Shown here piece after piece: positions 20,993-27,711 of a stretch of DNA of 42,034 bases. The number at the start of each line of letters is the position of its first letter. Position 1 is the first letter of the stretch. The notes beneath the pieces were generated by a model. That model saw nothing but the letters and a program-made list of their open reading frames with translations, was not told the origin of the DNA and did not search any database. The position numbers and the translations under genes were made by a program. Source of the DNA: Arenimonas sp. GDDSR-1 (lineage in GTDB: Bacteria; Pseudomonadota; Gammaproteobacteria; Xanthomonadales; Xanthomonadaceae); NCBI RefSeq assembly GCF_025980345.1, contig NZ_JAPDUI010000016.1:1-42034 (forward strand), in the 5' to 3' direction.

Positions 20993-21087
20993 AAATCCAT
21001 TAATCCTAAATGCCGGCGCGGCAAATGCGCTCTGGTGCAGGCATTATGCAAAAGATTGTCGCGATCAGAGGCGCGCTCAATACACTT

Positions 21088-21104
21088 TTTACGGACAATT
21101 TACG
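21088..21104 (+). promoter_or_regulatory. candidate response-regulator operator between kup and the kinase gene
   Basis: Direct repeat TTTACG (21088-21093 and 21099-21104) with an 11-base period, one helical turn. OmpR/PhoB-type regulators such as KdpE bind tandem half-sites of this spacing. A TATACG hexamer at 21120-21125 could be the -10, with the second repeat in the -35 position. Inferred from spacing and context only. Confidence 0.35.
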
Positions 21105-21184
21105 CAGAGTTGGGCACAATATACGGGTTGTTTTCAAAGCCCAACCATTTAAATCGGAATTCCAGATATTGCTCTGCCATCGCG

Positions 21185-22732
21185 ATGAACTATCAGAACA
21201 ACGAAGTAACGATTGAATACTCCGGTCTCGCGAGAGAAACCGGTTATGCCACGGGAGCGTGCGCGTTAGCGGTACTGGTCGGCATGGTCGCCGAAAGAAC
21301 GGTTCAGTTCGATGACCTCTCACTCATATTCATCACTGCGGTAATTTTCGTTTCAACACGCTCACGCATGTCCGTAGCGGTTTATTCCGCGATTCTGTGC
21401 TTTCTTTTCTATAACTATTTCTTCATACATCCCCGCTATAGTTTTCTCATTACCGCCTCCAAAGGCATGGTGACGGTCGGGACGTTTCTGGTGGCGGCGC
21501 TTATCTGCGGACGTCTCGCCAATAAACTGCGGACCCAGATTATTCTGCTGCGATCGGCCAATGCCCAGGCATCTGCATTGAAGACATTCGGACAGCGGCT
21601 TACTTCAGCAGCAGACGAAAGTGAAGCCATGCGGGCAGCAAAGAATGCGCTACGTGATGCTCTCGAGGCCGAAGTCGTCATGTTCAGCGTCGATGAATTA
21701 AGCGGTGAAATTCATGAACAACGCGATGAGCCCGCGAACACGCGCTTCGATCCGTCATTACAGTCATCGGCTTTGGCTTGCCTGCATGCAAAGCAGGACG
21801 GCCGCACAAATGAAATGCGCGACCTGTCCTGGCACTGTCAGGCGGTTTCGCTGCATAGCCGCAATCTGGGGATAGCCTGCTTTCGACAAACTACCGCCAT
21901 GCCGCAAATACCGCAGGGCAAGGCGCAGATGGTCGATGCGATGCTGCGCGATCTTGCGCAGGCGCTGGCGCGCGCAAGACTGGTCCGCCAACTCGAAGAT
22001 GCCCGCGTCCAGGCTGAATCCGAACGCCTGCGCGCCGCTTTGCTATCTTCGGTATCCCATGATTTGCGCTCGCCACTATCGACCATCATCGGCAGTGCGG
22101 AAAGCTTAAGCGCGTATCGGGACAATCTAACTACGGAAGATCAATTGGCATTGGCACGCGACATTCACAGCGAAGGCCAGAGACTGGACCGCTACATTCA
22201 GAACCTTCTCGACATGACACGAGTCGGCCATGGCGCTCTGGCTATAACGCGCGAGTGGATAGGTCTTGACGAAATCTTCGGCGCAGTACTGGCAAGGATG
22301 CGTAAATTCCATCCATCCGCTACCGTTAATCTGGATTCACCGTCTCCCGTGCCGCTGCTTTATGTGCATTCCGCGCTGATTGAACAGGCTCTGTTCAATG
22401 TGCTCGATAATGCCGTAAAGTTTTCGCCTTTCGATGAACCCGTTACCATTCGCGCAAGCTGGACGCAGGACCAAATAAAAATAGACATCTGCGATCTCGG
22501 CATCGGCATTCCCGAGTCGGACAGGACGATGATATTTGACCGTTTCCATACATCCGGCCGAAGCAATCGAAGCGGCGGCGGAACCGGACTTGGCTTGACG
22601 ATATGCCAGGGCATCGTAACCGCCCATAAGGGCACCGTCGTGGCTTTGCCGGGCGAACACGGCATAGGCACGATCATACGTATAACATTGCCATTGGAAG
22701 CCATGCCTACCGATTCGATCCGGGAGGAATGA
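21185..22732 (+). CDS. KdpD-like sensor histidine kinase lacking the KdpD N-terminal domains
   Basis: 515 residues from ATG 21185 (MNYQNNEV). It matches the C-terminal half of KdpD: a DUF4118 four-helix membrane domain (about 17-120) with YNYFFIHPRYSFLI, a GAF-like region (about 130-260), HisKA with SSVSHDLRSPLSTIIGSAE (phospho-acceptor H292) and HATPase with VLDNAVKFSP, DLGIGIPE and GGGTGLGLTIC. The roughly 370-residue KdpD-sensor and USP-like part of E. coli KdpD is missing. The frame is open 50 codons upstream, but that stretch has no family similarity. The ribosome-binding site is poor. It overlaps the regulator gene (TGATG) and is divergent from kup, so K+ or osmotic sensing is likely. 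Confidence 0.88.
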   Translation: MNYQNNEVTIEYSGLARETGYATGACALAVLVGMVAERTVQFDDLSLIFITAVIFVSTRSRMSVAVYSAILCFLFYNYFFIHPRYSFLITASKGMVTVGTFLVAALICGRLANKLRTQIILLRSANAQASALKTFGQRLTSAADESEAMRAAKNALRDALEAEVVMFSVDELSGEIHEQRDEPANTRFDPSLQSSALACLHAKQDGRTNEMRDLSWHCQAVSLHSRNLGIACFRQTTAMPQIPQGKAQMVDAMLRDLAQALARARLVRQLEDARVQAESERLRAALLSSVSHDLRSPLSTIIGSAESLSAYRDNLTTEDQLALARDIHSEGQRLDRYIQNLLDMTRVGHGALAITREWIGLDEIFGAVLARMRKFHPSATVNLDSPSPVPLLYVHSALIEQALFNVLDNAVKFSPFDEPVTIRASWTQDQIKIDICDLGIGIPESDRTMIFDRFHTSGRSNRSGGGTGLGLTICQGIVTAHKGTVVALPGEHGIGTIIRITLPLEAMPTDSIREE

Positions 22733-25682: not shown

Positions 25683-25711
25683 TTGCGCTGCAAGGGCAGA
25701 GCCAGTACAAT
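25683..25711 (+). promoter_or_regulatory. candidate promoter of the RapA-like gene, possibly giving a leaderless message
   Basis: TTGCGC (25683-25688), a 17-base spacer, TACAAT (25706-25711). The predicted transcription start falls at 25717-25719, on the ATG at 25718. No ribosome-binding site precedes that ATG, which fits leaderless translation. Confidence 0.45.
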
Positions 25712-25717
25712 GCGCCG

Positions 25718-26686
25718 ATGCCGAATATCATGCCCGGACAACGATGGATCAGCAGTGCCGAGCCCGAACTGGGACTCGGTACGATTCTCAGGGCAGACGC
25801 CCGGCAATCCGACATCATCTTCACCGGTTGCGGCGAACTCAAGCATTTCACCCATGCCGCTTCACCCCTGCTGCGCGTGCGCTTCGCGCCCGGTGACTGC
25901 CTGCACATGGATGGCGCTGCACGCCGCGTGGATGCGGTGACCGAAGATGCGGGCGGCACCCTGAACTACCACTGTGACGCGGATATTCTGCATGAAGGCA
26001 GCATCGATCCCGAGCAGCCTCATCTCCCGTCTGCGCTGCGCCTGCTGGTCGGCCAATACGATGCCGCCTATCTGTTCGAACTGCGCCGCCGTGCCCTGCA
26101 GGCCGGTTTTCTGGACCAGGAAGCTTTCGAACTTTTTGCCATGGCCCTGCTCGGTCACTTCGGTTGCCGGTTCACACCGGTCTCGGAACATGTATTTCTG
26201 CTTGATGCCGGAACCTCCGGGCTGGACCCGGGATTTGACAAAGGCACGCCCTGCCGTTTTGGCAGCGATGAAGGCAGTGAGGCGGGACATTTCATCCACG
26301 GCGGTCATCCACTCATGCAGGAAGCCCTCGAACGCTTTCTGCAAAGCCGTGCCGGTTGCGCGAGCTTCCTGATTGATGACACCCTGCCCGCACGCAGTGC
26401 CGTGCTGGAATCGGTATTCCGAAGCACCGAGGGTGCCGTGTCCCTGTTAGCGCTGGATGTACGGGGCAATCTCCTGACCGCCTACGCCCCGAACGAGCAG
26501 GCGGTATTCCGCTCGCGCGACAGCGGTATTGAGCTCAAGCCGTTCATGCGTAGCCTGACGCAGATCTACCCGCTACTGTTGGAAAGCAGCCTGGAACACG
26601 CCGCGGCAACCGATGCCGGAACATTGGAAGCGCTACGGCTGGTGGTCGGCGCCGAGTTTGCCTTGTTCGGCAAAAAGAACCGTTAA
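25718..26686 (+). CDS. RapA-like protein without the SWI2/SNF2 ATPase core
   Basis: 322 residues. The first 125 residues follow the RapA N-terminal domain: PGQRWISSAEPELGLGTIL (6-24), then VRFAPGDCLHMDG and a run ending near LFELRRRAL. From about 135 onward it follows the RapA C-terminal region (E. coli RapA: FAMNLFDIIG, then HPLIRNGLD): ELFAMALLGHFG, VFLLDAG, FIHGGHPLMQEALERFLQS, and the end EALRLVV, which matches the last residues of RapA (DALRLIV). The 500-plus residues of helicase-type ATPase that lie between these parts in E. coli RapA (968 residues) are absent: there is no Walker A and no DEAH motif. The join is in frame and ordered. It may bind RNA polymerase without ATP-driven remodelling; this is inference. 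It overlaps the rhomboid stop by four bases. Confidence 0.78.
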   Translation: MPNIMPGQRWISSAEPELGLGTILRADARQSDIIFTGCGELKHFTHAASPLLRVRFAPGDCLHMDGAARRVDAVTEDAGGTLNYHCDADILHEGSIDPEQPHLPSALRLLVGQYDAAYLFELRRRALQAGFLDQEAFELFAMALLGHFGCRFTPVSEHVFLLDAGTSGLDPGFDKGTPCRFGSDEGSEAGHFIHGGHPLMQEALERFLQSRAGCASFLIDDTLPARSAVLESVFRSTEGAVSLLALDVRGNLLTAYAPNEQAVFRSRDSGIELKPFMRSLTQIYPLLLESSLEHAAATDAGTLEALRLVVGAEFALFGKKNR

Positions 26687-27381: not shown

Positions 27382-27711
27382 TCAATCCGGCGCCCACAGC
27401 AACGTGTCCAGATCGAGGCCGCGCTTGGGCATTTTCACCCGCCCCGCACGGACCGCGACGCCCTCGGCACGCAGGCGCGCGGCCTGCTCGAGGAACATCG
27501 GCGAGCCTTCGGGGAAGGCGATTTTCCCGGAGGAAAGCAAAACCCGGTGCCAGGGCAGATCCGGCGCCCCGGAGGTGGAAAGAATCCGTGCGACCAGCCG
27601 GGCGCAGCCGGGAAAACCGGCCTTGGCCGCAATGGTGCCGTAAGACCACACACTGCCGTGGGGCAGCGTACGGATGACCGCAAGAATCCGGTCCTGCCTA
27701 GATTCCGACAC
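27382..27711 (-). CDS. alkyltransferase-like DNA-binding protein (ATL)
   Basis: 109 residues, the size of ATL proteins. It has the MGMT fold with the active-site cysteine replaced by tryptophan: PWHRVLLSSG (53-62, W54) where O6-alkylguanine transferases have PCHR. YGTIA (24-28) and GCARLVARIL (35-44, arginine finger R38) keep the DNA-binding and base-flipping elements. ATL proteins bind O6-alkylguanine and mark it for nucleotide-excision repair without transferring the alkyl group. It starts at GTG 27711 and overlaps the end of the phosphate transporter gene by 14 bases. Confidence 0.93.
   Translation of the reverse strand: MSESRQDRILAVIRTLPHGSVWSYGTIAAKAGFPGCARLVARILSTSGAPDLPWHRVLLSSGKIAFPEGSPMFLEQAARLRAEGVAVRAGRVKMPKRGLDLDTLLWAPD

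Follow-up and report, generated by a model that had tools for sequence, protein, structure and literature searches.

RapA (HepA), the Swi2/Snf2 ATPase that recycles RNA polymerase, is an abundant partner of this enzyme and its mechanism is disputed; it is seen either as a guardian of the clamp that is indifferent to ATP or as an ATP-driven remover of stuck polymerase. According to PMC8666675, E. coli RapA cuts the nonspecific DNA binding of the core polymerase ~2.5-fold, with ATP having no effect, and the N-terminal domain (NTD), beside the zinc-binding domain of the polymerase, is proposed to close the clamp. The same paper assigns this stage of transcription also to HelD, a polymerase recycling NTPase of Gram-positive bacteria. 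The contacts of E. coli RapA given in PMC8501970 are L216, V217, L220, R226, L229, I540, and I541 with the flap tip, R502, R524, E527, and R545 with alpha/beta, and E14 (to H80 of beta') and D744 with the zinc-binding domain; there, deletion of the NTD led to no noticeable change in polymerase binding, which was also no more than slightly reduced when the zinc-binding domain was removed. Here we describe a RapA without a motor, which also sets it apart from HelD, since the latter by description possesses one and contacts other sites of the polymerase. No description of a motor-free RapA was found among the titles and abstract beginnings of the open-access papers searched.

The window, the whole stretch of 42,034 nucleotides of Arenimonas sp. 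GDDSR-1 DNA that was analysed, contains an uninterrupted frame at 25718-26686 (+), which translates into 322 residues plus stop, as the preliminary description had claimed. The open reading frame, the family matches, the synteny and an AlphaFold2 model identify the product as a RapA orthologue without the whole Swi2/Snf2 ATPase. Its first subdomain, NTD-A (residues 6-57, 25733-25888 (+)), is matched by Tudor_1_RapA (PF18339) at residues 6-54 with an E-value of 1.8e-13, above the Pfam cut-off. NTD-B, the second Tudor-like subdomain (residues 58-108, 25889-26041 (+)), is diverged and was placed from the strands at residues 61-92 of the model. It is followed by the junction (residues ~131-136, 26108-26125 (+), approximate boundaries from the alignment) and, at 26126-26683 (+), by the remaining spacer and a trimmed C-terminal domain with a group-specific tail at its end, as delimited by Pfam and the alignment. 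RapA_C matches residues 137-237 with an E-value of 3.2e-4 and 20.3 bits, below the Pfam cut-off of 26.8, and the same region also aligns with full-length relatives. The likeness to RapA that had been noted at both ends is thus borne out, clearly at the N-terminus and at a sub-cut-off level at the C-terminus. The PDB chains of RapA match the protein with E-values of 9.7e-15 to 2.3e-14, and PRK04914, the NCBIfam equivalog model for RapA, with 1.5e-22 and 79.7 bits, far under its cut-off of 576 bits. The absence of the motor had also been recognized correctly: neither a Walker A, DExH or QxxGRxxR motif nor a Pfam match to the SNF2 ATPase core is present in the window protein.

RapA was matched in 38 of 61 genomes (that of the window and 60 relatives), among them all 27 of the genus Arenimonas. 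In 21 of these 27, two separate end matches lie far apart, as expected of full-length RapA, while in the other six a single match spans both ends. These six motorless genomes are that of the window (G000; 89 contigs, 91% complete), four metagenome-assembled genomes (MAGs; G001, G024, G007, and G014) and the isolate Arenimonas maotaiensis CGMCC 1.12726 (G006; 20 contigs, 100% complete), in which the gene is located within an 816 kb contig. Their sizes are 1.5-2.2 Mb, several being incomplete, compared with 2.3-4.3 Mb for the other 21. The motorless proteins diverge down to 47% identity; Tudor_1_RapA was detected in all six, RapA_C in four (E 0.01) and PF18337, the family of NTD-B, in one. As a separate observation, rapA is not one clean frame in four of the other 21 genomes: it is broken by a frame change or stop in G017 (locus L039), G016 (L041), and G011 (G011:C117), and lies over two contigs in G026.

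In a sample of 299 genomes of the order, 131 had a RapA match and only the window's genome spanned both ends among the matches listed; the matching genomes of this draw did not include the remaining five motorless ones. Among the matches listed for a class sample of 369 genomes, 108 of them with a match, it was again the only one to span both ends. In six genomes of the class sample, the match to the N-terminus lies within a shorter frame, of 161 (G505), 493 (G419), 637 (G558), 698 (G685), and 811 residues (G431), and in G659 of 346 residues beside a copy of 970. The best 80 of 133 confirmed loci in genome contigs comprise five short ones, 73 with frames of more than 900 residues, one that runs off the contig end and one that stops at 506 residues. 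None of 30 pattern matches in viral contigs was confirmed, the partial matches in four phage and 13 plasmid records do not reach a coverage of 80%, and PHROGs gave no match at an E-value of 1. One record of 1595 bases labelled Cyanobacteria phage AS-1 (DQ115825.1) shows 29% identity to residues 140-314 at positions 905-1492, which is possibly host DNA. Within the genomes searched, motorless RapA is real, conserved and limited to one clade.

The position of the gene was compared with that of rapA in 15 of the 21 other Arenimonas genomes. A rhomboid gene lies downstream of rapA in all six motorless and all 15 other loci, and an M13-type peptidase upstream in four of the six and in all 15; of the two exceptions, G024 shows a weak match to only the last 48 residues (E 0.011), and another gene precedes rapA in G014. 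The genes that recur farther downstream, as far as the contigs extend and not in every locus, are those for an alkyltransferase-like protein, PiT, DUF47, a CBS protein, and ExoD. The shared position and neighbours indicate that the motorless gene is rapA itself after an internal loss. In unrooted trees of the flanking genes the six split from the rest with FastTree supports of 0.997 with and 0.914 without G014, and UFBoot values of 96 and 81; a tree built from the shared RapA columns and including outgroups unites them in a clade with a UFBoot of 100. In the first flanking-gene tree, the full-length G018 had nested among the six as the neighbour of G006 (support 0.995), with a branch length of 1.9. 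G018 contributed a short stretch with paralogue-like matches (28% identity for M13, 45% for rhomboid) and groups with the full-length G015, G020, and G021 in the RapA tree; it was dropped, and the second version of the tree also omitted G023, G009, and G014. The branching order of G006 and G014 has a support of 46. Since the six group together, a single ancestral loss of the motor is the simplest explanation.

In this scenario, one in-frame deletion would have taken out the Swi2/Snf2 ATPase, ~575 residues in E. coli numbering, and both ends of RapA would have been retained as a single protein under a promoter of its own. The motorless protein shares with RapA the order of its N- and C-terminal parts and largely retains the sequence of NTD-A, whereas the ATPase core and part of the spacer are missing. 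In the alignment, residues ~131-136 occupy the place of E. coli residues ~136-712, which comprise the ATPase core plus the beginning of the spacer, and we infer that the protein cannot translocate. The C-terminal domain has also lost two smaller pieces, of ~13 and ~54 alignment columns, which had been missed in the preliminary description. All listed contacts with the flap tip and alpha/beta (E. coli residues 216-229 and 502-545) fall within the lost part, while E14 corresponds to E15 of the motorless protein and is invariant in all six. D744, the spacer contact, has no counterpart in the six, nor in full-length Arenimonas RapA. Compared with 13 full-length proteins of the genus, from which G016 and G017 were excluded because of their broken frames, 32 distinct positions are invariant in the six and differ from the commonest residue of the relatives, ten listed in the N-terminal part and 23 in the C-terminal part, with residue 132 in both.

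The preliminary description had considered a competitor of full RapA, which does not fit these genomes: a second RapA match was found in none of the six (the window's genome being 91% complete), and neither was an SNF2 motor elsewhere. PF00176, searched in the six and in four full-length genomes, gave one match in each of five motorless genomes, four of them above the Pfam cut-off, and none in G001. The matches in G000 and G006 are RecG, and those in G024, G014, and G007 score much like these two RecG genes with the mfd model (all five 316-361 bits), so a motor encoded elsewhere was rejected. As rpoB and rpoC are themselves undetected in G000, G001, and G014, the assemblies have gaps and absence from them is weak evidence; it is strongest in G006.

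Upstream of the gene, the promoter-like sequence TTGCGC-N17-TACAAT was located by script at 25683-25711 (+), with the start codon 6 bases after the second box. It occurs once in the whole window, in all six motorless loci, and in none of the 15 other rapA loci, which distinguishes the motorless gene from rapA, and both boxes and their spacing are kept despite protein identities as low as 47%. As to the good promoter claimed in the preliminary description, a consensus promoter scan yielded nothing upstream of the gene at its threshold, but the conserved sequence is present in all six loci. With only 6-7 bases between the second box and the ATG across the six loci, the sequence suggests a leaderless mRNA, with transcription starting from the ATG. 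In 12 of the 15 other loci rapA starts at most ~25 bases from the end of the M13-family match; the gap is ~130-190 bases in G025, G017, and G015.

AlphaFold2 predicts a compact fold for motorless RapA, confidently in one of two models. The window protein was modelled with a mean pLDDT of 93.9 and a pTM of 0.90 from 60 sequences, six short ones and 54 fragments from 27 of 73 full-length loci, so that this good model leans on the fold of the full-length protein. The A. maotaiensis protein, modelled from the six short sequences alone, reached a mean pLDDT of 62.4 and a pTM of 0.55. In a Foldseek search of the PDB with the predicted structure, RapA entries lead with low whole-chain TM-scores of 0.29-0.40, so that the relative placing of the two ends is a prediction, and nothing convincing was found among viral models. 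Spt5 KOW domains were also matched, though weakly, at E-values of 0.003 and higher; these are alike as small beta domains on transcription complexes, but their architecture differs and the matches are not significant at an E-value of 0.001.

Two explanations would make the motorless gene an artefact or a mere remnant. An assembly collapse could have deleted the central stretch, and four of the six genomes are MAGs; however, the same junction, at the resolution of the alignment, is present in six separate assemblies, including the 816 kb contig of the isolate CGMCC 1.12726, which makes this explanation extremely improbable. A decaying remnant that is in frame by chance is unlikely. RapA may be lost often in the family, as eight of ten genomes of other genera have no match, and the gene evolves faster than most of its neighbours: in the close pairs measured, dN/dS is 0.03-0.08 for M13, rhomboid, PiT, and DUF47, while the MGMT-like and CBS genes (0.15-0.23) are similar to the motorless gene. 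Yet the frame is open in all six lineages, with no indels among the three close sequences, the promoter is conserved, and dN/dS by the Nei-Gojobori method is 0.159 (G000-G001), 0.131 (G001-G024), and 0.187 (G000-G024). The bootstrap 95% ranges of these pairs lie within 0.076-0.266, and the maxima over 2000 bootstraps each are 0.295, 0.297, and 0.328. By segment, the values range from 0 to 0.37, the highest in NTD-B, with some segments under loose constraint, which counts against the accessory-factor reading below; the remaining 12 motorless pairs are saturated or at 0.16-0.38. Seven pairs of full-length relatives gave 0.137-0.226 for the whole gene. The motorless gene is therefore under purifying selection much like full-length RapA, in agreement with the earlier view of a stable gene, and the kept ends probably have a job that is independent of the motor. 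The stem branch of the six carries 1.2-1.5 substitutions per site in the retained RapA columns compared with ~0.11-0.12 in the flanking proteins, a contrast that is only indicative of a burst of change followed by constraint, because retained RapA columns evolve faster in general.

As to what this job may be, we tentatively favour an ATP-independent accessory factor of RNA polymerase that would bind through the beta' zinc-binding domain. The role of an RNA polymerase-binding factor, suggested in the preliminary description, is made plausible by the single retained E14/E15 contact. The protein would still visit the core polymerase with its N-terminal Tudor-like domain at the zinc-binding domain and would retain the ATP-independent half of the job of RapA, holding the clamp of the free core and preventing nonspecific DNA binding, while the ATP-driven removal of stuck polymerase would be left to Mfd and other factors. 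Three of the motorless genomes yielded rpoC and rpoB, and in these neither the beta' zinc-binding span nor the flap tip has changed; K66 and H80 were placed in this span by what we take to be the E. coli numbering. In the rpoC of the same three genomes (L135, L138, L141), a threonine is located just after the span, compared with an alanine in ten others. Considering the lost contacts and the deletion effects reported for E. coli, binding by the remaining part may be weak or even absent, and a 2025 study cited in PMC12448304 reportedly finds, by its title, that RapA opens the clamp, which counts against the clamp-closing view. The main rival, a doubtful one to our mind, is a protein that has left RNA polymerase and was repurposed, e.g., for RNA or DNA binding by its tandem Tudor/KOW-like domains. 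The loss of the flap-tip and alpha/beta contacts speaks for repurposing, as do the 32 group-specific invariant positions, several of which recur in outgroups or E. coli, the weak Spt5 KOW matches and the long stem branch, which would also fit a change of partner. Against it stands the best conserved segment, around PGQRWxSxAEPELGLGT, which contains the counterpart of E14 and is common to full-length RapA. It is less probable still than decay that the protein acts on another motor of the polymerase, for instance by partnering with Mfd or regulating it; an autoregulatory role towards an ATPase has been ascribed to the NTD of E. coli RapA, and Mfd is present in all six genomes, but there is no direct sign of a link, and Mfd, found in all eight genomes tested, says nothing specific as it is equally present in the two full-length relatives among them.

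Should the accessory-factor reading hold, motorless RapA could represent, in a formulation that we hold with slightly more reserve, a natural separation-of-function variant that discarded the motor and remained an ATP-free guardian holding the core via the beta' zinc-binding domain. In that case, the passive activity of RapA would by itself be reason enough for an entire clade to retain the protein. With its motor gone and the rest under selection, the clade provides a natural experiment on the mechanism of RapA, and a small protein for tests; it is also a case of an ATPase turning into a stable motor-free factor.

Two further genes of the window deserve mention. The histidine kinase encoded at 21035-22732 has only DUF4118, a domain typical of KdpD, together with HisKA and HATPase_c, no N-terminal KdpD domain being reported. 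The short alkyltransferase-like protein at 27382-27711 (-) contains a PWHR motif in place of PCHR, presumably the expected catalytic motif at this site, and may therefore be a non-enzymatic ATL protein.
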